64,000 bases of DNA, from positions 1 through 64,000 of the forward strand of contig JAKAKL010000140.1 of assembly GCA_021824565.1 (NCBI GenBank). The letters are read 5' to 3'. The position numbers were made by a program, and so were the translations under genes. Shown one piece after another: positions 50,246-63,397 of this stretch (its first letter is position 1; the number at the start of each line of letters is the position of its first letter). Origin of the DNA: Bacteroidota bacterium (lineage in GTDB: Bacteria > Bacteroidota > Ignavibacteria > Ignavibacteriales > Ignavibacteriaceae). Under the pieces are notes generated by a model. It saw only the letters and a program-made list of their open reading frames with translations. It ran no database searches and was not told where the DNA came from.

Positions 50246-50468
50246 TATAATTTTCTCTAAGCTGGTAATTATTAGGGTTGAACTTCAAACATGGTTTAGA
50301 TTTTACTAAATACTTTTACTTTTCAAACCAAAATAATAAAAAATCAAACTTAAAAAAAAATTTGAATGACATTGAACACTTGCACAAACTTGAAGTTTGA
50401 CATTCATGATAAACATACTTTTAATCACTTTTTATAAAGAAGGTTGATTCTATTTTTATAAAGTGAAA

Positions 50469-52802
50469 ATGAAAATCCGTTTGAAAAAAAGTAATATAGT
50501 TTTTTTCCTAGTTTCCTTAGCTGTCGTAGCAGTTGTTTTTATTATAATGAACTTTATTTTTCCCAAACACCGGCTGGCAGCATCGATGCAAAATATTCAG
50601 CAAGAAAAGAGGCAGCTATATCGCGGCTTATATGAAAAAGGCGGCTTGATTATTTACGGAGCTTCTAATAAAGATTTATCTGAAAAATATTTTGAAGTCG
50701 CTGAAAAACTAAAAGAAAATTTCAGATGGGGAAAATTCAAAATTGTGCCGGACACGGGAAGCGTAATTGACGAATTTAAAAATAATTCCATTATTATGAT
50801 AGGCGCTTATAAAACAAATAAAGCGTTACAACTCTTGATCAGATTTCTGCCGCTGAGTTTCGGAAAAGGAAATTTTAACTTTGATGGAAATAATTTTAAT
50901 GATAGTTCCGATATTATTAAGTTATTCTATTATAATCCATTTAACAGAAATAAAATTTCTTTTATAATAACCGGGAACAGCGACAGTGCTGTTTTACAAA
51001 ACATAAACCTTCGTTTAATAAGCGACTATCAGGTACTTCGCGGCGGCGAGACTATGGAATTAGGCTTTTGGAAATCGGCGGGCAATAAATGGGTGGTCGA
51101 CAAAAGCAGAAACGTGAATTATTTTGATGAAAGAAAAATTTATAACAGAAAGTTTTATAGGTACGTCGTATATTCAAATAAAATATCCCAAAAAAGATTA
51201 AACGAAGTTGACAGCATAAATAATTATTCTATAGAAAAAATAAAAAACTTTTTCGGCAGCTCATTCCGAATAAATAAAACTAAATATTTTCTTTATGATA
51301 ATTTTGAAGACAAAGGCTTAATCAGCGGAAATACTAATCTTACAAATATCGATTGGAACGACACCTCAATTCATTCAGTATTTAATAATTGGATAAACGG
51401 TGCTGACTTCACACAGAATTCTCTGCTTTTAATTAGAAAAAATTTCGGCAAACCTAAAATTAGTTTTTTGGAAGAAGGGCTTGCTATTTATTTTTCTCAT
51501 GACTGGCGAAAGTATGGATATAATTTTTGGGCAGGCTTTATCGCAGCCTCAGATGCGGTTCCGCCGCTGAATGAACTTTTAAGCAACAAAAACTTAGAAT
51601 ATATTTCTGATTTGATCTCCGAACCGCTTGCAGGAACTTTCACTGATTTTTTAATAAATAAATGGGGAAGGGAAAAATTTGTTAAAAATTATATTTCGTG
51701 GAAACCGACCAGAAACGAAACCGAATCTCTTGAAAAAGAATGGAAAAAATATCTGGAGGTTCTGTCAAAAAAATATTCGGCTGAAATTGGAAGTTATAAA
51801 AAAAGATTTCCTTCGAGCATTCCATCGTTTCAAAAGGGATTTTGTTTCGCTCATGAAGGCTACCAGATTTATAACGGGTATCTATCCCGCGATGCATACC
51901 AATCTTTGCAAAAGCTTGTAAGCCTGGGGGTGAACTCAATTTCTATTACTCCGTTTACTTCGATGCGTTTTGCAGATAAACCGGAGCCGCTGAGATTCTG
52001 GGAGTTTGCGGGCGCTGAAAACGATGAAAGCCTGATTTATCTTTCTCACATAACTAAAGAATTAAATTTAAATGTAATTCTTAAGCCTCATATTTATCTC
52101 GGAGAAAATAGCTGGCCTGGTAATATTAAAATGAAATCTCAAAAGGAATGGAAAATATTTTTCCATGATTATTACAACTGGATAATGCATTACGCATTTC
52201 TTGCGGAGATGTACGGTATCCCGATTTTCTGTATCGGCAACGAGCTATCAAATGCAACGATTGGGCATGAAGCAGAGTGGATAAAATTAATTAAAAGCAT
52301 AAGAAAAATATACGACGGGAAATTGGTTTACGGCCCTAACTGGAGCAACGAATTTGAAAAAATAAATTTCTGGAATTATCTCGACTACATCGGTTTAAGC
52401 GAATATTTTCCTCTTAGCGAAAAGGACAACCCATCCCAGAAAAATCTGGATGAAGGCGCAGAAAAAATAATGGACAAAATAGAATCCGTTCAAAAAAAAT
52501 TTGGTAAGCCTGTAATCTTCACTGAAGTCGGATTTAGAAGCACAGAGGAACCGTGGAAAACTGCGCTTGAGAACGATGGCAAAAATAAAATAAATCTTCA
52601 ATCCCAGGCTGACTGTTATGAAGCAGTGTTAAAAGCGTCGAAAGGCAAGAATTGGCTTGCCGGCATGTATTGGTGGAAATGGCCTAGCTATCTTTCGTAC
52701 GGCGGCGGTCCTAATAATTCCGAATACACGCCTAATGATAAGCCCGCAATGCTCGTTGTTAAAAAATATTTTAACGGAAATTATTTTAACTATCAAAAAT
52801 AA
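50469..52802 (+). CDS. Membrane-anchored fusion: degenerate peptidase-like domain plus GH113-like TIM barrel
   Basis: The 777-residue protein starts with a signal anchor (NIVFFLVSLAVVAVVFIIMN). Residues about 50-440 resemble the gluzincin 'peptidase MA' region: FLEEGLAIYFSHDW near 335 matches the third-ligand motif, but the HExxH expected upstream is absent. Residues about 450-775 form a TIM barrel of the GH113 type, starting FCFAHEGYQIYNGYLSRDAY, with putative acid/base Glu592 (FCIGNELSNA) and nucleophile Glu686 (VIFTEVGFRS), and ending WYWWKWPSYLSYGGGP-like. GH113 members include beta-mannanases. I chose ATG 50469 over GTG 50463. It is divergent from the Mla operon. Confidence 0.8.
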   Translation: MKIRLKKSNIVFFLVSLAVVAVVFIIMNFIFPKHRLAASMQNIQQEKRQLYRGLYEKGGLIIYGASNKDLSEKYFEVAEKLKENFRWGKFKIVPDTGSVIDEFKNNSIIMIGAYKTNKALQLLIRFLPLSFGKGNFNFDGNNFNDSSDIIKLFYYNPFNRNKISFIITGNSDSAVLQNINLRLISDYQVLRGGETMELGFWKSAGNKWVVDKSRNVNYFDERKIYNRKFYRYVVYSNKISQKRLNEVDSINNYSIEKIKNFFGSSFRINKTKYFLYDNFEDKGLISGNTNLTNIDWNDTSIHSVFNNWINGADFTQNSLLLIRKNFGKPKISFLEEGLAIYFSHDWRKYGYNFWAGFIAASDAVPPLNELLSNKNLEYISDLISEPLAGTFTDFLINKWGREKFVKNYISWKPTRNETESLEKEWKKYLEVLSKKYSAEIGSYKKRFPSSIPSFQKGFCFAHEGYQIYNGYLSRDAYQSLQKLVSLGVNSISITPFTSMRFADKPEPLRFWEFAGAENDESLIYLSHITKELNLNVILKPHIYLGENSWPGNIKMKSQKEWKIFFHDYYNWIMHYAFLAEMYGIPIFCIGNELSNATIGHEAEWIKLIKSIRKIYDGKLVYGPNWSNEFEKINFWNYLDYIGLSEYFPLSEKDNPSQKNLDEGAEKIMDKIESVQKKFGKPVIFTEVGFRSTEEPWKTALENDGKNKINLQSQADCYEAVLKASKGKNWLAGMYWWKWPSYLSYGGGPNNSEYTPNDKPAMLVVKKYFNGNYFNYQK

Positions 52803-53153: not shown

Positions 53154-53426
53154 ATGAAAATTAAACCAATGGATGATAGAGTTCTTGTTGAACTTGTTGA
53201 AGAAGAAGAGAAAACATATTCGGGAATAATCATTCCGGACACTGCAAAAGAAAAACCTCGTATAGGAAAAGTTGTAGCTGTTGGAACGGACGATGACCTT
53301 CGCGAAAAAGTAAAAGAAGGAAATAAAATTCTTTTTACTAAATATGGCGGCGAAGAAATTTCCTTTGACGGCGCGGAATATAAAATTGTTCAACGCGCAG
53401 ATATTTTAGCTGTGGTTGAAGATTAA
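53154..53426 (+). CDS. groES: Co-chaperonin GroES, not followed by groEL
   Basis: The 90-residue protein is a full-length GroES with the start KIKPMDDRVLVE, the mobile-loop region EEKTYSGIIIPDTAKEKP, and KYGGEEISFDGAEYKIV. It caps the GroEL ring during protein folding. A ribosome binding site (TGGAG) is present. Unusually groEL does not follow; a strong terminator does, and the operon partner is glutaredoxin instead. Either groEL is elsewhere or this is a second copy. Confidence 0.97.
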   Translation: MKIKPMDDRVLVELVEEEEKTYSGIIIPDTAKEKPRIGKVVAVGTDDDLREKVKEGNKILFTKYGGEEISFDGAEYKIVQRADILAVVED

Positions 53427-53452: not shown

Positions 53453-53520
53453 AGAGGGGCTGGTTAAAAAATTCGTTACCTAAATCATAATTAATTTTTT
53501 AATCAGTCCCTCTTTATTTT
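53453..53520. terminator. Long convergent terminator between groES and the nicotinamidase-like gene
   Basis: Bases 53453-53473 pair with 53493-53513 over 21 positions with two G-U wobbles and a 19-base loop. T-rich bases follow on the plus strand. The stop codon of the convergent minus-strand gene lies just beyond the stem. Confidence 0.85.
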
Positions 53521-54554
53521 ATTAACTTCACTCCTTCCCAGCTTTCAATTGGCATAGTCGATTTGACAATGTGCATCCCTGCATCGGCGAATTTTTGGAA
53601 TGACTTATTTGCATCATCAGTGTAATCAATAACGCCGGGCACTACAACCGGCGATGTGCAGTCTTCAAGAAGATATACTTTGCTTGTAAGATGTTTTTTA
53701 TACAGCAAAAAATCATGCAGAAGATCGTCGATTGTCCAGGCAACGCAGTGGCTTTTTGCCTGACCTGCAATTATAATTATATCATATCCGGATAATCTCT
53801 CAATTAGCTTGGAATTTTTATCCGCAATTTTTTTACCGTCGATTCCTTCGCGGACTTCAGGACCGAAAATTGAGTAGTGCTCGGTAAACGGATTATTTCC
53901 TTTTAGCTGAAAATTCGGCTGGCTGTACCTCGCAGCGCTGTGAAAAAAAACTGCTTCTTCAAATGCCGGAACAAGCGCATAACCTATGCCGCCGAGCATT
54001 GCATGATAAGGCCAGATTGTAAGATTATATTTATTTCCTTCCTTTAATTTTTTTGTATAATGAAGAAGATAGTTTTCAGCTTTAGCAAATTCTACTCCGA
54101 GGTTCCTGCAAGCTTCGCCATTTATTTTCCAGGTACCTCTCTCAACATCTTCAACAGAAATTAATGTATACGGGTTCGGATGTTCTCCTTTCTCGTTGAC
54201 CAAAAAAATAGGATGGAAAATTTGCAGCGGGCTGTGAGTATCCATTGTCGGAATTATTTCAGTTATAACATCTAGATTTTTATAAATAAAATTACAGAAA
54301 CGCCTTGTGTCTTCAACAGCAGCATTTCCGCTCCTTCCTCCTACAAATAATTCAAACCCCGGAATGCAAAAAGTATTTTGCATATCAACAGCTAATAAGC
54401 AAATCTTTGTCTTATCTTCCGACGAAGGCTTTATCCCAAATTTTTTTGCCCAATCGAATGCATCTTTTGCTCGATGTTCATAATCAACTTTCCAGATTTC
54501 GCCGGATTTGCTTTCATTAAAAAAGTCAGGCAGAGGCAAGTTTATCGTGTGCAT
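53514..54554 (-). CDS. Nicotinamidase/isochorismatase-like cysteine hydrolase, enlarged form
   Basis: The 346-residue protein has an alpha/beta hydrolase core of the isochorismatase superfamily: LLAVDMQNTFC (catalytic Asp), LTIWPYHAMLGG, and GQAKSHCVAWTIDDLL (nucleophile Cys). It is much longer than classic nicotinamidases (about 200), with an N-terminal extension of about 50 residues and an insertion between strands (residues about 110-180). The cofactor metal ligand pattern Asp...His is partly visible in PTMDTHSP. The substrate could be nicotinamide or another amide. It is a single gene converging on groES. Confidence 0.82.
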   Translation of the reverse strand: MHTINLPLPDFFNESKSGEIWKVDYEHRAKDAFDWAKKFGIKPSSEDKTKICLLAVDMQNTFCIPGFELFVGGRSGNAAVEDTRRFCNFIYKNLDVITEIIPTMDTHSPLQIFHPIFLVNEKGEHPNPYTLISVEDVERGTWKINGEACRNLGVEFAKAENYLLHYTKKLKEGNKYNLTIWPYHAMLGGIGYALVPAFEEAVFFHSAARYSQPNFQLKGNNPFTEHYSIFGPEVREGIDGKKIADKNSKLIERLSGYDIIIIAGQAKSHCVAWTIDDLLHDFLLYKKHLTSKVYLLEDCTSPVVVPGVIDYTDDANKSFQKFADAGMHIVKSTMPIESWEGVKLIK

Positions 54555-55100
54555 TATTTTCCCTTAATATTAATATTATAATTCATATTATAAAAATAAT
54601 AAAATCAGAATTTAATATATAAGTAACATTCCGGTAACAATCACATAATACCGGGTGTTTATTTTCGCTTCTGAAAATTAAAAATAATTTTCTGTTTTAC
54701 CTTGATTCGCTTCTCCTTCAACCGGAAAAGCAATGTAACTATGTAAGCTGATCCGGTTGAATCTTATAAATCACAAGTCCGAACAAACCATTCCTTAGTA
54801 TGCTCAAGTGCACTACTTGAATTTTCCCGAGGTTGTAAATTATGTCAACCAATATTTCACCCGGTATAAATTCTGACAATGTAAATCTTTTAATATTATC
54901 CAGGCAGATTGTATAAACTAATTTTTTTAAAAAAAACTTTATGAACTTCATTAAAGATTTAACTTTTAATTTTTTTTACGATAATTAAATATGGTACTAA
55001 TTTCTACTTTGCAAAATTCATTAAAAGAAATTAACATATTCTAAATTTGTTTTGTAGCTCATGTAAAAAGTAATCCATTCTTAAAGGACGGAGGAAAACG
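54555..55100. other. AT-rich intergenic region upstream of the PrkA operon
   Basis: These 546 bases separate divergent genes and should hold the promoters of both. An open frame of 70 codons on the minus strand (54739-54951) has no ribosome binding site and no family resemblance, so I do not call it. A TAAATTTG stretch at 55042-55049 resembles the Bacteroidota -7 box, but I cannot find a partner at the right distance. A GGACGGAGGAAAACG ribosome binding site sits before the prkA ATG. Confidence 0.5.
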
Positions 55101-57164
55101 ATGAATAATAATTGTAATACTGTCGAATCCTATCTGAAGGAATTAAAAGAAGGACAGCACCATTTTGAAAATATTTTTGAATCACTTGCGAGAATGCTGT
55201 TTAGCAATTCCGAGTTTATTAAACCAACAATTGTCAACGGCAAAAATACGTACGACTTCATGCAGTTTCGTACAGGTAAAAAACATATTATAGGTTTGTT
55301 CGAGGTTATCAATAAATTTGTAGCTTTTATTAAAGATGCCGCCGAGAACGGCGAAAGCAAAGAGATGGCTTTTGTTCTGGTTGGAGAACCTGGCAACGGC
55401 AAAACTTTCTTTGTGGATTATCTTTCCGCGATGTACCGAAAGTTTGTTTCAATTCCTGAAAATAATAAATATACTTTCCGCTTTAAGCTGCCGAATGAAT
55501 TGGCTGGCTATGGTAACATTAGGCTTATTGAGTCTCAAACTTATGAAGATCCGATGATCTTGATGATGAACTTTTACAGGAATGAAAATGAAAATAAGTC
55601 TCATCTTTCCATGTATGGTTTTTCGGATAATGAGATTGATAAACTCTACGCAAATTATCGTCCGCTTGGCGCAGATACAGAATTTATTCTGAATGATTTG
55701 GTAACTTTCTACGACGGCGATATTGAAAAAGTAAAAGAACACATTGATATTGTTAAAGTTCCGATAAGCGAAACTCTTGGTACAATCACCGGCAAATATC
55801 CGGCTAAAGATAAATTAACCAGCAGCGGAGTAGACCTTGTCGGCGAAGAAAGTATTCAACGGCTCTTGCACATTACTAACACAAATAATCCTTACCGATT
55901 CGACCTTAGGAGAGGCGCATTAGCGCGTGTCAGCGGCGGCGGCATTCACTTTGCCGATGAAATTTTTAAGAACAAAACCGACCTGCTCAAAATTTATCTC
56001 GGTGTTGTTCAAAACCGAGTTATTGAGATCGATGCATTTAAATGGCCCATTGACACTTTTATTATCGCCACCAGTAATAACGCCGACGTTCAAAACTTCA
56101 GAGCTAACGATGAAGAAAAACCTATTCTTGATAGGTGTAAGTTTTGCTACGTAGCTCATAATACCAATTATAAACTTCAAGAAGACCTTACACATTATGC
56201 TTTAGGCGAAGGCGATAAAACAACTTTTATGGGCGAAAAGCTTCATATCGATCCCAACCTTTCTTATACTTTATCGGTTATAGTTACTCTCAGCAGGCTT
56301 CCGCGCTCGGAAGATAAACTTACTCCGGTTGAAATGATGAAGCTTGCCGCTGGCGAAGTTGCCGGTGAGAAAAGCGTTAAAACTTTAGCCGAAATAGTTG
56401 ACCAGCTCGAGCATGAATCAGACACTACAAAAAGATTTGGTCAAAAAGGATTGGGGCAGCGCGATCTTGCCCGCATTATAAACACGCAGCGCAGCTACTC
56501 TGAAACAAACGAAGGTAAATGTATGTTTACTCTAAACGTTTTTAAAGCTGCCGAGGAAGTTATCCTCGATTATATTCAAGACAACACCGAACGCGCAAAA
56601 TATTTTGAGGATTTAAATATTGCTAAAGACCTTTATAGAAAAAGAATCCGCACCGAAATGTTCAACGCTTTTATGGACGAACCGGCGGCAATTAAAAAAG
56701 ACGTGCTGATGTATGTTAACATGATAGTGGGCATGGGGCGCTCCGATATTGGACCGGATAAGATTATTACTTACCGCGATCCTCAGACAAATAAAATGCA
56801 GCCCATCAAAATTGACGAGCGTTTTGTAAATGCGGTTGAGAATGAACTTGAAATGAAAACGCATGAGCAGAAAGAATCCTTCAGAGGACAAATAAGAAAA
56901 ATTTATGCGCAGCGGCTTCAGACGGATAAGAACTATGACTTTATGGATAACGTTGATCTGGTAAAGGCTGTTACCGATACCCGGCTTAATTCCGATATTG
57001 CTTCAGCCGGTGGGCTAGTTGGTGCTTTGGCAAATCGTACTAATGAAGACAATGAGAAATTGTACAACAGAATTGTAACAACGATGAAAAGTAAACTGAA
57101 TTATTGTACTACTTGTGCACAAAAAACGATTGAGTTTTTCTGTACTCAAGATCATCAAACTTGA
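55101..57164 (+). CDS. prkA: PrkA-type AAA+ serine protein kinase
   Basis: The 687-residue protein has a PrkA AAA+ domain: Walker A GEPGNGKT at residues 95-102, Walker B-like GGIHFADEIFKN near 280, and sensor-like FIIATSNNADVQNF. A C-terminal helical domain follows (GQRDLARIINTQRS onwards), where the kinase function of PrkA is placed. Homologues are E. coli YeaG and Bacillus PrkA, linked to nutrient stress, nitrogen starvation and sporulation control. It is the first of four co-directional genes with 6-15 base gaps. A GGAGGA site precedes the ATG. Confidence 0.92.
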   Translation: MNNNCNTVESYLKELKEGQHHFENIFESLARMLFSNSEFIKPTIVNGKNTYDFMQFRTGKKHIIGLFEVINKFVAFIKDAAENGESKEMAFVLVGEPGNGKTFFVDYLSAMYRKFVSIPENNKYTFRFKLPNELAGYGNIRLIESQTYEDPMILMMNFYRNENENKSHLSMYGFSDNEIDKLYANYRPLGADTEFILNDLVTFYDGDIEKVKEHIDIVKVPISETLGTITGKYPAKDKLTSSGVDLVGEESIQRLLHITNTNNPYRFDLRRGALARVSGGGIHFADEIFKNKTDLLKIYLGVVQNRVIEIDAFKWPIDTFIIATSNNADVQNFRANDEEKPILDRCKFCYVAHNTNYKLQEDLTHYALGEGDKTTFMGEKLHIDPNLSYTLSVIVTLSRLPRSEDKLTPVEMMKLAAGEVAGEKSVKTLAEIVDQLEHESDTTKRFGQKGLGQRDLARIINTQRSYSETNEGKCMFTLNVFKAAEEVILDYIQDNTERAKYFEDLNIAKDLYRKRIRTEMFNAFMDEPAAIKKDVLMYVNMIVGMGRSDIGPDKIITYRDPQTNKMQPIKIDERFVNAVENELEMKTHEQKESFRGQIRKIYAQRLQTDKNYDFMDNVDLVKAVTDTRLNSDIASAGGLVGALANRTNEDNEKLYNRIVTTMKSKLNYCTTCAQKTIEFFCTQDHQT

Positions 57165-57177
57165 TATTACATCTTAA

Positions 57178-58536
57178 ATGAAAAATAAGAAATTATTATA
57201 TAGCGATCATAAGGGAAACAGAAAGCGGGAAGATATGATACGCCTGGAATCTGCAAAGAAGCATTTTGAAATTTTTGAATGCCCGAATTTGTGCGGACCT
57301 CAAAAAGGATTTCTCAGCTTCTATGACTACAGAGATACGGAATATCTTATAAACTATACTGCTGAAGGAACCTCTTTAAGCCGCCTCTTTACTCTCGATA
57401 AATTATTAGAGCGTGATAAACTGCGTGAGAAAGATGGATTCCCGAGAAAAATAAAACTCGGTAAGCTCGTTAAGCCTTCAAAAAACGGTAAAGACAGGAC
57501 TATAATTATTCCTACAACAAGTGAAGAAAAATTTTATCATTGGAGCGGACAGCCGACCGGTGATGAAGGTCCGTCTACAGGCGGAAGCGGCGAAGAAAAA
57601 GAAGGCGATGTAATCGGCGAAGAAGTGCTGCGGGAAGAAGAAGGCGAAGGACAAGGAGCCGGGCAAGGCAAGGGCGGCGAGCACGGCGAAGGCGCTGAAG
57701 CTTATGAAATCGGACGTATCTTAACCGAGCAGTTTGAACTTCCTAACATAAAGGAGAAAGGTAAAAAAACTTCGCTTACAAAATTCACTTATGAGCTTAC
57801 CGATAAAATGAGAGGCACCGGTCAAATTCTTGATAAGAAATCCACGCTTAAGCAAGTAATTAAAACTAATCTGGCACTTGGAAATATTTCAAAGGATGAA
57901 CCGATAGATTCTGAAAAGATTGTTTTCTCGCCTGATGACAGAATTTATCATATCTTATCGCGGGAAAAAGATTTTGAATCGCAAGCGATAGTTTTCTTCG
58001 TGCGCGATTATTCCGGCTCTATGCAGGGCAAGCCCACTGAGGTGATCGTTTCTCAGCATATATATATTCATAGCTGGCTGGTTTATCAATACAAACGTCA
58101 GGTAGAAAGCAGGTTTATTGTTCACGATACAGAAGCGCAGGAGGTTCCGGACTTTTTCACTTACTTTAATAAATCTGTTGCGGGAGGTACCGATATTGCT
58201 TCCGCTTATAGACTCGTTAATAAAATTGTTGAAGAAGAACATCTGATTCGCGATTACAATATTTATGTTTTCCACGGCACCGATGGTGATGACTGGGACG
58301 ATGAGGAATCAGAAGCCGTTCGCGAGCTTGAGAAAATTTTGAAGTACGCAAGCCGCTTCGGAATTACAATCGCTAAAAATAATTATTCCATGCGAAGCAC
58401 CACCGTAGTTGAAAATTATCTTAACGAATCAAAGTTGCTTGAGAAATATTCTGACGTTCTTCACGTTGATATTTTTAATGCTGAAGAAGCTACCGAAGAT
58501 AGAATTATTCAAAGTATTAAAGCCTTAATTAGCTGA
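57178..58536 (+). CDS. DUF444 (YeaH/YhbH) protein with von Willebrand-like MIDAS
   Basis: The 452-residue protein belongs to the YeaH/YhbH family. A central acidic, glycine-rich linker (about 130-180, for example EGEGQGAGQGKGGEHGEG) precedes a C-terminal vWA-like domain whose MIDAS motif is Asp277-x-Ser279-x-Ser281 (RDYSGSMQGKP), with GGTDIASAY and HGTDGDDWDDEE supplying further metal-site residues. The partner of PrkA in E. coli and Bacillus has this same family. AAA+ plus vWA pairs generally act as metal-dependent substrate-handling machines; that is inference here. Confidence 0.93.
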   Translation: MKNKKLLYSDHKGNRKREDMIRLESAKKHFEIFECPNLCGPQKGFLSFYDYRDTEYLINYTAEGTSLSRLFTLDKLLERDKLREKDGFPRKIKLGKLVKPSKNGKDRTIIIPTTSEEKFYHWSGQPTGDEGPSTGGSGEEKEGDVIGEEVLREEEGEGQGAGQGKGGEHGEGAEAYEIGRILTEQFELPNIKEKGKKTSLTKFTYELTDKMRGTGQILDKKSTLKQVIKTNLALGNISKDEPIDSEKIVFSPDDRIYHILSREKDFESQAIVFFVRDYSGSMQGKPTEVIVSQHIYIHSWLVYQYKRQVESRFIVHDTEAQEVPDFFTYFNKSVAGGTDIASAYRLVNKIVEEEHLIRDYNIYVFHGTDGDDWDDEESEAVRELEKILKYASRFGITIAKNNYSMRSTTVVENYLNESKLLEKYSDVLHVDIFNAEEATEDRIIQSIKALIS

Positions 58537-58542
58537 TTTAAA

Positions 58543-60174
58543 ATGGAATTAATAGATCAACATACAAAGCGGATCATGGAAGGCTGCAAAGAACGCGCGG
58601 CTGATGCAGGGCTTCGCTTCGGCAAAGAAACTTTGGAATACATGGTTACAAATACTGATCTGCTGGAGCTTTCTCCCAAAAATATGATCCCTACTCTTTA
58701 TGATTATTGGTTTCAGGATATCGAAGTCCTTCATGGTAAAGGAGAATATGAGTACTATCCTAACAATCCTTACGAAACAGTTATCAATACCAGGCCTGCT
58801 ATTTCGTTTTATAATAATGAAAATCCCGACTGGATGAATGTGATGATCTTTTATCACGTAATTGCTCATATAGATTTTTTTCAGAACAATAAATTTTTTG
58901 AGCAGACGTGGGATTACGATTTTAAAGAAAAAGCTCTGACTGAGAAAAGAATTATCTCAAAGCTGCGGTCACAGAAGGGACGTGTTGTAGATTATTTAAT
59001 TGAGTTCTCTCGCGGGATAGATAATCTTGTCGGATATTTTAACGAGCTTACCGAAAAGGAAGAGACCGACCTTTTTAAGCTTCCCGAGCAGGTAGATTTT
59101 TATTTCAATCATTTCCTTCAAAGCAAGCCCTCGATGGAAATGCAAATGTACCTGAAGGAAATAGAAAGGTACAATGGCATTCAAGGCACGAATAATAAAT
59201 CCAAAGAAGAAATTTTCTTTGCTGATGTGATTGAGAAAAATCCGGAGTTCGAAGAGATGCTTAATAAGCACAAGAAAGAACAGCAGCAAAATAAAAAGAT
59301 GGACTTAATCCAGTATATAGCGGAAGAAAGCGGCTTCATTAATAAAGAAGAAAACTTGTGGATGAAAACTGTGCTCGGCATTATACGCGATACGGCGATT
59401 TATTTTTCGCCGCAGATTAGGACTAAAATTATGAATGAAGGATGGGCAAGCTACTGGCATGAAAAGCTCTTTCTTCAAGACGACCGTATTCGCGGAAATG
59501 AAGTTGCATTTGCTAAGGTAAATGCACGAGTAACTTCACTATCAAAAGTCGGATTAAATCCGTATGCAATCGGCTGGAGATTGTTCATGCACATTGAAGA
59601 CATGGCAAATAAAGGGAAATATTCAAATGATTACAGACGTTTAAACAGCATTGATAAGAGGGATGAATATAATTCAAAAGCAGGCAAGGGGCTTGACTTT
59701 ATATTTAAAGTCAGAGAGAATTATTGCGACCAAACTTTTCTTAATACATTTATCGATCAGGAGTTTGTCGATAAGCATAAATTAATGGTGGTGGGACAAA
59801 GAATTAATCCTTCTAAAAACCGTAAAGAATATTATGTGAAAAGCAGGAAGATGAAGGATTACAAGAATATGATAATCGATTCTTTGTATCATCCGCCTTA
59901 TGTTAAATTCACTACGAAGAGCGACGGCACTCTTTATCTTAATCATAAATTTGAAGAAAAAGAATTATACAGAGATTACATCGCGAATACTATGATCGGA
60001 CTTGAATACTTATGGGGAAGCAAAGTTCAGCTTGAAACGATGGAACTCGACTGGGAAAAAATGAATAAAGAAACCGACAGCAAAAGCCCGGATGATATTG
60101 CAACGATCAATCCTCTTTTCAGAAAGGTTTTATATACCGTTGAAAATAAGCAAGTAAAAAAAGAAGTTCTTTAA
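58543..60174 (+). CDS. SpoVR/YcgB-family protein
   Basis: The 543-residue protein matches SpoVR: early PTLYDYWFQDIEVLHGKGEY region, NNPDWMN-type segment followed by VIAHIDFFQNNKFF, and the hallmark NEGWASYWHEKL at residues 298-309. SpoVR affects spore cortex assembly in Bacillus, and YcgB is co-regulated with YeaG/YeaH in E. coli; the biochemical role is unknown. Its conserved His/Glu-rich motifs would fit a metal-dependent enzyme. It starts six bases after the DUF444 gene stop. Confidence 0.93.
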   Translation: MELIDQHTKRIMEGCKERAADAGLRFGKETLEYMVTNTDLLELSPKNMIPTLYDYWFQDIEVLHGKGEYEYYPNNPYETVINTRPAISFYNNENPDWMNVMIFYHVIAHIDFFQNNKFFEQTWDYDFKEKALTEKRIISKLRSQKGRVVDYLIEFSRGIDNLVGYFNELTEKEETDLFKLPEQVDFYFNHFLQSKPSMEMQMYLKEIERYNGIQGTNNKSKEEIFFADVIEKNPEFEEMLNKHKKEQQQNKKMDLIQYIAEESGFINKEENLWMKTVLGIIRDTAIYFSPQIRTKIMNEGWASYWHEKLFLQDDRIRGNEVAFAKVNARVTSLSKVGLNPYAIGWRLFMHIEDMANKGKYSNDYRRLNSIDKRDEYNSKAGKGLDFIFKVRENYCDQTFLNTFIDQEFVDKHKLMVVGQRINPSKNRKEYYVKSRKMKDYKNMIIDSLYHPPYVKFTTKSDGTLYLNHKFEEKELYRDYIANTMIGLEYLWGSKVQLETMELDWEKMNKETDSKSPDDIATINPLFRKVLYTVENKQVKKEVL

Positions 60175-60189
60175 AAGATAATTTTTATT

Positions 60190-62457
60190 ATGACCTCAAG
60201 ATTTTATAACTCGAAAGATATAATTAACCTGCTCGATGGAAAACTCAAGAAGCGTGAGAAAGGATCTATTATCCCTTTCAGCGAGTTCTTAGCAAAAACT
60301 CATGACGACCCGCTTCATTATTTTAGAAATGTTTTCCAGCTCTTCAGCAATATGCTCTATTATTATATCGACATTGAAGACGAATATAAAGACGACCCGG
60401 AAAGTATTAATTATAAAACAGTTGATTGTAAAAGGCTATTTATCGAAGGCACCGACACACCGTTCTTTGCCGATCTTCCGCTTGCCAACCGTTTGCTGGG
60501 CTTTGCGGATTCATTTAAAGAAGGCGCACAGCAGAATAAGATTTATGTTTTTATTGGTCCTCCAGGCAGCGGAAAAAGTACATTCTTAAATAATCTTCTG
60601 CAAAAATTTGAAGAGTACACACACAGCGCCGAAGGAATTAATTATGAAGTCCTATGGCGTTTAGACAATAGTAAGATAGGAAACAGCATTGCTCCGATAG
60701 TACGGGAAGCTTTGGATGAATATTACAAAAAGCAAAACGATCATACGCACGCGCAATCAGACTTTCTTGAAGTGCCGTGTCCCAGCCACGATCATCCAAT
60801 ACTTGTTATACCAAAGGAGTACCGTGCAGAGATAATAAATAAAATTATAAAGGATGACGTCCGCCTAAAAATATTTTATAAAAAAGAATATGAGTGGCTC
60901 TTTACTGATAACGCATGCACTATCTGCACTTCAATGTATGACGCGCTGATTAATAGACTCAGTTCTCCTGCAGAAGTATTTGAGATGCTTTACGCAAAGC
61001 GGTATTATTATAACCGCCGCCTTGGATACGGCATCAGCGTTTTTAATACCGCCGATAACGAGCCGGAAAAAATTGTTTTCACCAACGAAGAATTGCAGAG
61101 ACAATTAAGCTTTCGGTTTCGAGACAGCAATCTGATACAGTACTTGTTTTCACGTTATGCAAGAACCAACAACGGGGTTTTTGCTATTATGGATGTTAAA
61201 GGCTATAACGAAAAGAGATTTTTAAATCTTCACGGAATTATCAGCGAAGGCATTCATAAAATTGAAGACATCGAAGAGAACGTGAATTCATTATTCATTG
61301 CCGTGATGAATCCGGAAGACAAGCAGAAGATATCTTCTTTAGAATCCTTTAAAGATAGAATTATAGAGATTAATGTGAACTATATTCTAAATTACTCTGA
61401 AGAAGTTAAAATCTATCTTCACTCTTTCGGCGATCAGATACAAAAATATTTTCTTCCCGGCGTGCTGGAAAATTTTGCAAAGATAATTATAAGCTCCCGC
61501 TTGAATATTAATTCTTCCGCGATCAATGAATGGATTAAGGATGCAAAACAATATGCAAAATACTGCGACGATAATCTTTTGCTTTTGAAGCTGAGCATAT
61601 ACTCGAATAAAATTCCCGATTGGCTCACGGATGAAGATCGTAAAAAGTTTGATAAGAAAATACGTCTCAGGATTATTAAAGAGTCTGATAAAGAAGGAAA
61701 GACCGGCTTTTCGGGAAGGGAATCTATATATATTTTTGACGAGTTCTTTAATTCAATAAAGAAATCGAATGGCAATGCTAACGAGGAAGTCACTAAAATT
61801 ACTATGGAAGATATTCACTCATTCTTCAAAAAGCATGAGCATTATTGCGAACGGATTCCAAAAGGATTTATTGATTCAATAATTAGGCTGTATAACTACA
61901 ACGTAATGCAGGAAATTAAGGAGTCTCTTTTCCATCAGAACGAAGAAAGAATCAGTAAGGATATTCAGAATTATCTTTTTGCCTCAAACTATGATGTAGG
62001 CGAAAAGCTGCTTTGCCCTTATACAAAAGAAACAATCGAGATAACCGAACAGTTCTTGAATTCAATAGAACAATATCTGCTTCCGAATAATGTTTCTAAC
62101 TCAGGACGCAGAAAATTCCGCGAAGAAACCGCCGTCAAGGTAGGAATGAGCATTCAGCAAATGACTGAGCCAGCCAATCTGCAGGATACCGCTATCTACA
62201 ATGAATTATATTCCGATTATATAAATAATTTAAGAGAACACATTTTTCAGCCCTTTATGGAGTATCCCGCTTTTGAAAGCGCTATAAAAGAATACGGCTC
62301 GCCGAAATTTGAAGTATATGATAATAGAACAAAGGAAGAGGTCAGTTATTTAATAAAAAACCTTGCGGATAAATTTCATTACTCAAAAGAAGGAGCTAAG
62401 CACGTCTGTCTTTACGTTATTAGGAATAAAATTGCAGAAAATTTTATTTCAGATTAA
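60190..62457 (+). CDS. Second, divergent PrkA-type AAA+ ATPase
   Basis: The 755-residue protein is a distant PrkA paralogue. Walker A is PPGSGKST at residues 124-131. The expected Walker B region reads VFAIMDVKGYNEKRFLNLHG, with Asp where PrkA has the catalytic acidic pair, followed by a PrkA-like LFIAVMNPEDKQKI. A large insertion after the Walker A (about 150-290) includes VPCPSHDHPILVIPKEYR, and DNACTICTSM could bind metal. It closes the operon. The missing second acidic residue suggests altered ATP hydrolysis. Pairing of two PrkA-type proteins with DUF444 and SpoVR occurs in some non-sporing bacteria. Confidence 0.85.
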   Translation: MTSRFYNSKDIINLLDGKLKKREKGSIIPFSEFLAKTHDDPLHYFRNVFQLFSNMLYYYIDIEDEYKDDPESINYKTVDCKRLFIEGTDTPFFADLPLANRLLGFADSFKEGAQQNKIYVFIGPPGSGKSTFLNNLLQKFEEYTHSAEGINYEVLWRLDNSKIGNSIAPIVREALDEYYKKQNDHTHAQSDFLEVPCPSHDHPILVIPKEYRAEIINKIIKDDVRLKIFYKKEYEWLFTDNACTICTSMYDALINRLSSPAEVFEMLYAKRYYYNRRLGYGISVFNTADNEPEKIVFTNEELQRQLSFRFRDSNLIQYLFSRYARTNNGVFAIMDVKGYNEKRFLNLHGIISEGIHKIEDIEENVNSLFIAVMNPEDKQKISSLESFKDRIIEINVNYILNYSEEVKIYLHSFGDQIQKYFLPGVLENFAKIIISSRLNINSSAINEWIKDAKQYAKYCDDNLLLLKLSIYSNKIPDWLTDEDRKKFDKKIRLRIIKESDKEGKTGFSGRESIYIFDEFFNSIKKSNGNANEEVTKITMEDIHSFFKKHEHYCERIPKGFIDSIIRLYNYNVMQEIKESLFHQNEERISKDIQNYLFASNYDVGEKLLCPYTKETIEITEQFLNSIEQYLLPNNVSNSGRRKFREETAVKVGMSIQQMTEPANLQDTAIYNELYSDYINNLREHIFQPFMEYPAFESAIKEYGSPKFEVYDNRTKEEVSYLIKNLADKFHYSKEGAKHVCLYVIRNKIAENFISD

Positions 62458-62560
62458 CAACGCTGCTTAAAGTGAATAAACAATCAAAAATATTTGATAT
62501 GCAGCCTTGACAAATAAGGAGATAGTCTTTAATTTTGAAAGCCTTTTTAAGAAAAAATAT

Positions 62561-62632
62561 TCCGCGATAGCTCAATGGTGGAGCATTCGGCTGTTAACCG
62601 AAGGGTTGCAGGTTCGAGCCCTGCTCGCGGAG
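62561..62632 (+). tRNA. tRNA-Asn (anticodon GUU)
   Basis: The 72-base sequence has an acceptor stem TCCGCGA / TCGCGGA, D arm TAGCTCAATGGTGGAGCA, anticodon loop CTGTTAA with anticodon GTT, and T arm GCAGGTTCGAGCCCTGC. The discriminator is G and CCA is not encoded. A terminator follows ten bases later. Confidence 0.97.
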
Positions 62633-62641
62633 CACAAAGTC

Positions 62642-62675
62642 AAGCCCCGATTTATTCGGGGCTTTTGTTTTTTTT
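62642..62675 (+). terminator. Terminator after tRNA-Asn
   Basis: A 9-bp stem, AAGCCCCGA (62642-62650) with TCGGGGCTT (62656-62664), a five-base loop and a T tract interrupted by one G. Confidence 0.93.
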
Positions 62676-62745
62676 AATAAAAATTTTAACTTTTATATTA
62701 AATAAATTTCTCTTTTAATTAAAATATGTGAATGAGAAAAATAAT

Positions 62746-62952
62746 ATGAACAGTATAATAGACCTGCATGATCTTCCAGAAAAAGATGTTCAGTTTATTC
62801 GACAGCTTGTTGATCTGCTAAAAGAAAAAAAACTAGGGAGTATGAAAAAAATAAGCGGTAAAAGACAAGAGAAAAGAATTAAGCTTCCAACATACAGTTT
62901 AGGTGCTGTGCGTGGGTCCTTAAGCCGCAAAGAAATTTATGATTACCTCTGA
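62746..62952 (+). CDS. VapB/RelB-like antitoxin
   Basis: The 68-residue protein has a short helical N-terminus (IIDLHDLPEKDVQFIRQLVD), a basic central part (KKISGKRQEKRIKLP) and a C-terminus YSLGAVRGSLSRKEIYDYL that resembles the toxin-binding tail of VapB-type antitoxins. Its 3' end overlaps the PIN-toxin start by 14 bases, which is the strongest evidence. A GTG at 62728 is an alternative start. The DNA-binding fold is not typical AbrB or ribbon-helix-helix by eye. Confidence 0.75.
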   Translation: MNSIIDLHDLPEKDVQFIRQLVDLLKEKKLGSMKKISGKRQEKRIKLPTYSLGAVRGSLSRKEIYDYL

Positions 62953-63397
62953 AACTGGTCTTGTCGATACCAATGTTCTTGTCTATGCAATAAATGAAAA
63001 TGCGAAGCAGCATAATGCATCCCGTAAACTTGTAGAAGCAGGCTTGAATGGTGAAATATCAATTTGTTTTACCCCGCAAGTTCTCTCAGAATTTTTTGCA
63101 ACTGTAACTAACCCGAAACAAATTACAAAGGTCCTATCCCGTAAAAATGCTATTTCTGAGATAGAAGATTATTTCCTTAAAGGTGTCGGCGATTTGGTAT
63201 TTGTCCAAAGAAATACAATTGATAAAATAATTGAGTTGCTCAAAAAATACCCTATAAGCGCTCAAGACATATTTGACTTACAACTAGTTGCTACTATGCT
63301 GTCAAATAATGTTGCCCGCCTATATACATATAACGATAAAGACTTTTCCTTTTATTCTGAAATCGAAGTACTCAATCCTGAGTCGGCAAAATTATGA
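62939..63397 (+). CDS. VapC-like PIN-domain toxin
   Basis: The 152-residue protein begins GLVDTNVLVYAINE, with the first PIN Asp at residue 10, has SEFFATVTNP with the conserved acidic residue of the second motif, and ISAQDIFDLQLVATML with further Asp residues, then YTYNDKDFSFY. The acidic quartet of a PIN ribonuclease is therefore present. It should cleave RNA unless bound by the upstream antitoxin. The pair lies directly after a tRNA gene, a frequent integration neighbourhood. Confidence 0.88.
   Translation: MITSETGLVDTNVLVYAINENAKQHNASRKLVEAGLNGEISICFTPQVLSEFFATVTNPKQITKVLSRKNAISEIEDYFLKGVGDLVFVQRNTIDKIIELLKKYPISAQDIFDLQLVATMLSNNVARLYTYNDKDFSFYSEIEVLNPESAKL

Follow-up and report, generated by a model that had tools for sequence, protein, structure and literature searches.

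The window is a stretch of 64,000 nucleotides from a Bacteroidota bacterium of the family Ignavibacteriaceae (GCA_021824565.1, contig JAKAKL010000140.1, positions 1 to 64,000 of the forward strand). It contains a four-gene operon encoding two PrkA-type AAA+ proteins, a DUF444 protein and a SpoVR protein. The four genes are as follows.

55101..57164, plus strand: prkA1, an open reading frame (ORF) of 687 amino acids; PrkA-type AAA+ protein with a PrkA C-terminal domain
57178..58536, plus strand: gene for a DUF444 (YeaH/YhbH-type) VWA protein, ORF of 452 amino acids
58543..60174, plus strand: SpoVR gene, ORF of 543 amino acids
60190..62457, plus strand: prkA2, ORF of 755 amino acids; AAA+ protein with a PrkA C-terminal domain

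The intergenic gaps in the ORF calls of the window are 13, 6 and 15 bases. PrkA1 and PrkA2 matched the PrkA C-terminal domain PF06798 (105.3 and 132.2 bits, cut-off 25) and AAA_PrkA, PF08298 (51.6 and 31.6 bits, cut-off 25). The DUF444 protein matched PF04285 (122.7 bits, cut-off 27) and was also assigned by NCBIfam NF003712 (607 bits, cut-off 421). The SpoVR protein matched PF04293 (184.7 bits, cut-off 27) while the SpoVR C-terminal model PF24755 stayed under its cut-off (24 compared to 27.6 bits). The initial annotation had described two PrkA-type AAA+ proteins flanking a DUF444 protein with a metal ion-dependent adhesion site (MIDAS) and a SpoVR protein, with gaps of 6 to 15 bases, and both the ORFs and the Pfam matches agree with this layout.

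The order PrkA1-DUF444-SpoVR-PrkA2 recurs in all 12 intact loci (the window, L003-L008 and L022-L026) and the PrkA genes are always on the flanks. The order is not due to chance, since it is the same in 12 loci. When 19 flank loci were compared all-versus-all only the four genes formed families that reached 13 loci. A family of antisense ORFs inside prkA1 came next, in 6 loci.

A sample of 197 genomes of the class was searched with PF06798, PF04293 and PF04285. All three exceeded the cut-off in the identical eight genomes, each with exactly two PrkA matches and one SpoVR. Two rows under the cut-off, a DUF444 match in G146 of this sample (19.3 bits) and a PrkA match in G255 of the phylum sample (19.8 bits), were excluded from the counts. 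The eight genomes sit in three family codes (f1, f2 and f21) and are related by descent, so the eight co-occurrences are not eight independent events. A phylum sample of 395 genomes was searched for PrkA only, the SpoVR and DUF444 searches covering the class sample. Beyond the same eight genomes it contained G326, with a single canonical PrkA, the locus of which (L031) also has DUF444 and SpoVR. In the genus sample (G000 and G502-G513) PrkA was present in 5 of 13 genomes, with two copies in all five. Presence in the genus is patchy, at five of the eight genomes with a completeness of 90% or more and a contamination of 5% or less, which points to recent loss or transfer. A second PrkA living independently of the other genes, which the initial annotation had named as evidence against a joint system, was not encountered in the class and genus samples, where all 12 distinct PrkA-bearing genomes hold exactly two PrkAs.

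The strongest evidence for a joint function is the retention of the set without linkage. The operon is broken up in two of the eight genomes. In G179 the four genes lie on four contigs and two PrkAs, one DUF444 and one SpoVR are kept. G186, of the same genus, has the genes on three contigs with PrkA2 and DUF444 approximately 16 kb apart and also keeps the full set. The four genes are thus one unit, all-or-none in the class sample and kept even when scattered. Orthologue distances of the four proteins were correlated over 14 genomes (Mantel r 0.906-0.964, with 0 of 999 permutations as high), as expected of co-inherited proteins. A plasmid tblastn search with PrkA2 gave no record and one with PrkA1 gave 13 records (best E 8e-7, 18.6% identity).

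The two PrkA proteins were compared in an alignment of 14 PrkA1, 14 PrkA2 and 8 other (canonical) PrkA sequences. The motifs in the window are listed here with their occurrence among the orthologues.

55383..55406, plus strand: PrkA1 Walker A, GEPGNGKT, in 14 of 14
55941..55961, plus strand: PrkA1 Walker B, G-I/V-HFADE, in 14 of 14
60556..60579, plus strand: PrkA2 Walker A, GPPGSGKS, in 13 of 14 by pattern, with the Lys in 14 of 14
60778..60798, plus strand: PrkA2 CPSHDHP, first half of the PrkA Cys/His motif, with the His in 12 of 14
60916..60927, plus strand: PrkA2 CTIC, the other half of this motif; all 14 have C-x-I-C
61168..61200, plus strand: PrkA2 Walker B region, NNGVFAIMDVK; the lone acidic residue D335 in 14 of 14

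The Walker A Lys was present in every row of the alignment. The Walker B motif of PrkA1 is HFADE, with the acidic pair DE in 14 of 14, compared to a lone Asp in MD-V/I-K in all 14 PrkA2 sequences. The other PrkAs have E-x-x-E at this place (8 of 8), as do 68 of 68 viral PrkA ORFs of 600-760 amino acids. This E-x-x-E is missing in both proteins of the operon and neither fits the canonical (YeaG or Bacillus PrkA) subtype. The altered Walker B of PrkA2 pointed out in the initial annotation is therefore real. Invariant in 14 of 14 were the sensor-1 Asn, finger Arg and sensor-2 Arg of PrkA1 (N326, R345 and R454) and of PrkA2 (N374, R390 and R510). A change from Glu to Asp at this Walker B place generally slows hydrolysis in AAA+ proteins. 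Judged by these Walker A, Walker B, sensor and finger residues across the alignment, PrkA2 resembles a subunit that binds ATP but is impaired in hydrolysing it, and PrkA1 is presumably a fully equipped, hydrolysis-competent motor. At the level of sequence the two sites are complementary.

The CP-x-H...C-x-x-C motif of PrkA2 was complete for Cys in 14 of 14 and for His in 12 of 14, and CP-x-H was found in 0 of 14 PrkA1 sequences. Four of the eight other PrkAs had CP and three had C-x-x-C, while the solved PrkA 9xip has both. A Cys/His-bearing insertion had been singled out in PrkA2 by the initial annotation. The motif is present but is not peculiar to PrkA2, being an ordinary feature of part of the other PrkAs that PrkA1 lacks. 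Mean pairwise identity over the 14 rows was 0.735 for PrkA1, the most conserved of the four proteins, and 0.525 for PrkA2. In the phylogenetic tree PrkA1 and PrkA2 each formed one clade (SH-aLRT, an approximate likelihood ratio test, 100) on a long branch, with inner branching that was similar but not identical. These long branches may attract each other and no timing of the split is claimed.

The following motifs were located in the DUF444 gene.

58006..58020, plus strand: DYSGS, the MIDAS core; D-x-SGS in 20 of 21 rows, the exception being L031
58183-58191, plus strand: GGT; 20 of 21 rows, the exception being the fragment L057
58276-58293, plus strand: GTDGDD; GTDGD in 12 of 21 rows

The PF04285 match together with the VWA MIDAS motif D-x-S-G-S places the protein in the DUF444/YeaH-YhbH family. 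It had no match among the sequences of the PDB.

SpoVR was analyzed in a set of 55 rows (the window, six bacterial relatives and 48 sequences from viral contigs) and in a broader alignment of 21 rows. Three motifs were identified.

58771..58797, plus strand: strand motif Y-E78-T-V-I-N82-x-x-P85; E78, N82 and P85 in all 55 and all 21 rows
58855..58869, plus strand: H105-V-I-A-H109, putative metal ligands; none of the 55 or the 21 rows has Glu at residue 106
59434..59460, plus strand: N298-E299-G-W-A-x3-H306, with E299 as putative third ligand; E299 in all 55 and all 21 rows

Invariant over the 55 rows were E78, N82, P85, H105, H109, N116, N298, E299, G300, A302, N339, Y341 and D396, and N298-E299-G300-x-A302 was found in every row of both alignments. 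The H-x3-H and NE-G-x-A motifs resemble the HExxH...NEGxA of gluzincins, a likeness that was written down ahead of the fold searches. The general-base Glu of the peptidase HExxH was never present (0/55 and 0/21). The predicted model of SpoVR places H105 and H109 on a helix (96-115) after two strands, and E299 and H306 on a second helix (295-311). A second look at the Foldseek list (VIA) ranked 3o0y, which we take to be a DUF885-type metallopeptidase-like protein, first (Z 11.7), followed by ERAP2 (10.3) and BsuCP (8.4); for mostly helical models a best Z of about 14 is common without a true relative. Ranks 4 to 7 were three lethal-factor entries (6.0-5.3) and DPP III (4.9), the non-peptidase rows began at Z 4.7 and the BT_4244 metallopeptidase was at rank 12 (Z 4.1). 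DUF885, as a nearer peptidase comparator, had no match in this genome.

Full-length, N-terminal, C-terminal and spliced SpoVR profiles were aligned by hhalign to 20 M1 peptidases of related genomes. Three of them (full-length, N-terminal and spliced) paired HVIAH with the M1 HExxH. The C-terminal and spliced profiles paired NEGWASYW with the M1 NEGFATYFE. The scores were 25.7, 25.9 and 25.4, each reached by 0 of 100 column shuffles (best 18.8, 23.6 and 22.7). Nineteen windows of PrkA profile used as controls scored 16.9 at most, below the SpoVR-M1 scores. Judging by model and profiles, SpoVR is probably a zincin-like, putatively metal-binding protein and not a classical peptidase. Like the gluzincin peptidases (M1, M32 and others; clan MA) it has the H-x3-H helix and the NE-G-x-A helix in its model, and its predicted fold may be of the same kind; unlike them it has no general-base Glu and has approximately 190 residues between the motif halves. 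The single SpoVR sequence had no match among PDB sequences and its profile had one weak match there, to a Mediator subunit (E 0.65).

The AlphaFold2 model of PrkA2 had a mean pLDDT (predicted local distance difference test) of 81.0 and a pTM (predicted template modelling score) of 0.77, from an input alignment consisting mostly of viral PrkAs at 17-22% identity. The top VIA matches, for which a best Z of 7-8 is common without a true relative, were ChlI (Z 9.9, root mean square deviation 3.2, 192 aligned), RuvB (9.1), NorQ (9.0) and BchI (8.8). Four NorQ-NorD entries (8.8-8.5) followed and then ORC, RFC (8.4) and cso-CbbQ (8.3). In all, six NorQ-NorD entries (8.8-8.2) and the sigma54 activators (8.1-8.0) were listed. 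The solved PrkA 9xip was not among the listed Foldseek or VIA rows for this model, and a family absent from a VIA list may still be related. The initial annotation had compared the operon to MoxR-VWA machines. In support, ChlI, NorQ and BchI are among the best fold matches of PrkA2; against it, the scores are moderate, RuvB, ORC and RFC are close, and the available text of PMC13001217 places a Bacillus PrkA in another clade. The matches of the predicted fold fit the comparison without proving it. The interpretation in the initial annotation is thus supported in part, by the linkage of the four genes, these moderate fold matches and the apparently impaired Walker B of PrkA2. MoxR-type pairs (NorQ-NorD and CbbQ-CbbO) and Mg-chelatase (ChlI/BchI) further resemble the operon in that a MIDAS-bearing VWA partner, here DUF444, is encoded alongside the AAA+ protein. 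PrkA differs from these AAA+ proteins by its large C-terminal domain and, in some lineages, by the Cys/His motif.

The gene set is of a known kind, since related sets are reported in the accessible text of three papers: in haloarchaea two adjacent PrkA-like kinase genes were described in 2011 in all genomes, always with DUF444 and SpoVR genes (PMC3102087), in R. etli a prkA-VWA-spoVR operon is backed by reverse transcription PCR (PMC3188799), and YcgB-YeaH-YeaG is a co-conserved triplet (PMC2375023). The spoVR gene was described in 1994 and prkA in 1996. The haloarchaeal cluster, compared by its description, is like the operon in having two PrkAs, one DUF444 and one SpoVR always together, and unlike it in that its PrkA genes adjoin each other while those of the operon flank DUF444-SpoVR (12 of 12 intact loci). 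The canonical triads (the R. etli prkA operon, E. coli yeaGH with ycgB, and Thermomicrobium PrkA-YhbH-SpoVR) share the three families and, where clustered, the order PrkA-DUF444-SpoVR. They differ in having one PrkA, with an E-x-x-E Walker B in the sequences examined, and in E. coli K-12 ycgB is located elsewhere. The yeaG and yeaH genes matter for starvation survival, and the biochemical role of the gene set is not stated in the accessible text of the cited papers. A literature search, which was thin on subscription papers and preprints, turned up none, among the papers listed and examined, that describes SpoVR as zincin-like or connects it with MoxR. PMC3533761 mentions SpoVR and a metalloprotease, the latter being YhcO in the text available. 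As far as this search reaches, three points are new: the bacterial layout in which PrkAs with complementary Walker B sites flank the other two genes, the all-or-none distribution in the class sample and the zincin-like reading of SpoVR.

Viral contigs frequently carry cassettes of this type. An IMG/VR scan based on the SpoVR alignment gave at least 482 relatives among the 600 pattern matches listed, these totals being lower bounds. The viral loci kept (L065-L144) were the best-scoring 80 and not a random sample. They comprised 44 loci of the order PrkA-DUF444-SpoVR, 27 of the order DUF444-SpoVR-PrkA and 9 with partial or different sets. In the operon of the window both places, before and after DUF444-SpoVR, are taken by a PrkA. 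The phage-borne cassettes share with the operon the clustering of the same three families but have one canonical-type PrkA in the loci seen and often lie among replication genes. Flank families among the best 80 loci included UvsX, gp32, DNA polymerase III alpha, a DnaB-like helicase and a ClpP-like protein, and some of these cassettes stand beside T4-like replication genes. In PHROGs the L072 cassette matched families of unknown function, with a weaker match to "sporulation protein" for DUF444. SpoVR relatives also turned up in 15 records of deposited phages, 11 of which were Thermus phages. The available text on the Ralstonia jumbo phage RsoM2USA also reports SpoVR and PrkA ORFs (PMC8504454). 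L065 (1887-4003), on a 15 kb "viral" contig, has a SpoVR 44% identical to that of the window and a PrkA2-like gene that is broken into two reading frames. It is probably bacterial DNA.

NorQ-NorD, CbbQ-CbbO and Mg-chelatase motors load or activate clients that bear a metal or cofactor, and Mg-chelatase pairs an active with a degenerate AAA+ protein. Our preferred reading of the four genes is an obligate module in which PrkA1 and PrkA2 would form a two-subunit AAA+ motor, with DUF444 as adaptor and SpoVR as a client with a zincin-like site minus the general base. It is held tentatively, with doubt slightly outweighing belief. It is supported by what the analysis shows, namely gene content, co-occurrence, co-inheritance, complementarity of the motifs and fold resemblance of the predicted models. 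The similarity of single and double yeaG/yeaH mutants in E. coli, as given in the accessible text of PMC4664914 and PMC6299236, was also counted in its favour. In the proposed mechanism PrkA1 would be the catalytic subunit and PrkA2 the ATP-binding but hydrolysis-impaired subunit of a mixed assembly. The VWA/MIDAS adaptor DUF444 would dock this motor on its target SpoVR. ATP hydrolysis by PrkA1 would then remodel SpoVR through DUF444, by metal loading, metal exchange or conformational activation, on the model of NorQ-NorD, CbbQ-CbbO and the Mg-chelatase I/D subunits with their clients. The remodelled SpoVR would act in starvation or stress survival. We infer the mixed assembly, the impairment of hydrolysis, the metal binding, the client role of SpoVR and the direction of action. 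A wider version, arguable but doubtful, would have PrkA-DUF444-SpoVR operate in the manner of the AAA+/VWA metal-handling machines, with SpoVR a peptidase fold turned non-peptidase metalloprotein and, in this bacterial lineage, a motor divided between one catalytic and one dead AAA+ subunit that converges on the Mg-chelatase I/D architecture.

A natural variant with two PrkA partners, one ATPase site apparently working and the other apparently impaired, and with both partners present throughout in the sampled genomes, offers a way to study how the motor is constructed. The proposed metal site of SpoVR (H105, H109 and E299) poses a concrete biochemical question for this protein. A long-unexplained stress and sporulation gene set becomes testable and, given the viral cassettes, an answer would bear on phage biology too.

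Several results weigh against this module. Other PrkA systems work with one PrkA. Foldseek gave no match for the PrkA2 model under E 0.001 in the PDB (best E 0.0039), ORC, RFC and the sigma54 activators were less than 2 Z from its top VIA score, and the Bacillus PrkA of PMC13001217 is placed, in the part of that paper available, in AAA+ Clade III (YME1-like) and not in the chelatase/MoxR group. Confidence in the SpoVR model was moderate (pLDDT 74.5, pTM 0.67) and Foldseek found no significant match for it in the PDB (best E 0.89). The model is largely helical and its VIA scores may be reached by chance, and for this reason the kind of match, zincin peptidases, weighs more than the size of Z. 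The hhalign probabilities of SpoVR against M1 were low (1.8-20.5%), the best shuffle came close to the real score (23.6 compared to 25.9) and the full-length alignment failed to join the NEG motifs. The distance between the SpoVR motif halves is far wider than in M1. The His pair is spaced one residue wider in 4 of 21 rows (E. coli YcgB and three other proteobacterial sequences), and 29 of 55 rows have Asp instead of His at position 306.

Of the other explanations, the one that survives best is a pair of separate PrkA machines, each PrkA forming its own ring, sharing DUF444 and SpoVR and specialised by condition or by SpoVR site. Both PrkAs keep the Walker A Lys, sensor-1 Asn, finger Arg and sensor-2 Arg, they form distinct clades on long branches, and the CP-x-H motif is kept in PrkA2 and missing from PrkA1, all of which speaks for this reading. 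We nevertheless consider them unlikely, as the copies always number exactly two and never one alone in the 12 PrkA-bearing class and genus genomes and the Walker B of PrkA2 looks unfit for an independent motor.

Less likely again is that SpoVR is an active hydrolase using another residue as base, such as the invariant E78, with PrkA and DUF444 merely switching it on. The strict conservation of E78, N82, H105, H109, N298, E299, N339, Y341 and D396 in the 55 rows suggests a working rather than decayed site, but the HExxH Glu is missing in every row of both alignments.

PrkA as an unfoldase feeding a protease was suggested by the viral cassettes. A ClpP-like ORF was found in 26 of the best 80 viral loci and in 18 of these it starts 57-580 bases downstream of PrkA-DUF444-SpoVR on the same strand (L068, L073, L076, L078, L082-L088, L090, L095, L102, L112, L115, L120 and L127, several of them near-copies). 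A representative of it matched Pfam CLP_protease (94.7 bits), and limited protease activity of B. subtilis PrkA is cited in PMC13001217. This ORF possibly links PrkA to proteolysis or is simply a head protease. It best fits the head maturation proteases of PHROGs, the conserved bacterial unit in the 19 flank loci has no protease gene, and purified Bacillus PrkA left its test substrates uncleaved in the available part of the same paper, making an unfoldase role improbable for the operon.

A shade more improbable is a phosphorylation module in which PrkA is a serine/threonine kinase, the source of its name, with SpoVR or DUF444 as substrate. The family annotation favours it, and the accessible text of PMC4664914 cites kinase activity of recombinant YeaG and reports that YeaG K426A, altered in the C-terminal domain, does not complement in E. 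coli. The K426 column is Arg in 14 of 14 PrkA1 sequences, has no Lys in the 14 PrkA2 sequences and is Lys in four of eight other PrkAs, so that neither protein has the catalytic Lys of a Hanks-type kinase at this position. The part of PMC13001217 available also reports Bacillus PrkA without detectable autophosphorylation and without a kinase P-loop in its C-terminal part. That the four genes co-travel by horizontal transfer without forming one machine would suit their patchy distribution (8 of 197 class and 5 of 13 genus genomes) but is very improbable, as all four were kept after scattering in G179 and G186.

The remaining features near the operon are listed below.

50463-52802: protein of 779 amino acids
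52895-53140: YruB-family glutaredoxin-like protein
53154-53426: groES
53514-54554, minus strand: protein of 346 amino acids, upstream neighbour of the operon
62561-62633: tRNA-Asn, directly downstream of prkA2
62642-62664: strong terminator-like hairpin, 3' of tRNA-Asn
62939-63397: PIN-domain, VapC-like gene, downstream

Control by sigma54 was considered and rejected: the pattern TGGCN7TGC had two matches in the window compared to 4.69 expected and none upstream of prkA1. Scans for sigma70-like promoters and terminators were at background level. The tRNA was the sole Rfam match over 54400-63000. A defence-system identity was rejected, the PADLOC matches being weak only (the best, with E 4.3e-05, spans 28 residues at the P-loop). 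The tRNA-Asn may be co-transcribed with the operon. In four close relatives (L003, L004, L007 and L008) a tRNA-Gly lies on the opposite strand near the operon end. The VapC-like gene scored 59.6 bits with TIGR00028, under the cut-off of 73.6. The protein at 53514-54554 matched nothing in NCBIfam and no Pfam model above its cut-off; its VDMQNTF stretch is reminiscent of cysteine hydrolases. groES (NF001531, 109.9 bits) has no groEL directly adjoining, the next large ORF being on the other strand. The glutaredoxin-like protein matched TIGR02196 (92.0 bits) and the C-terminal part of the 779 amino acid protein matched glycoside hydrolase family GH113 (165.5 bits).

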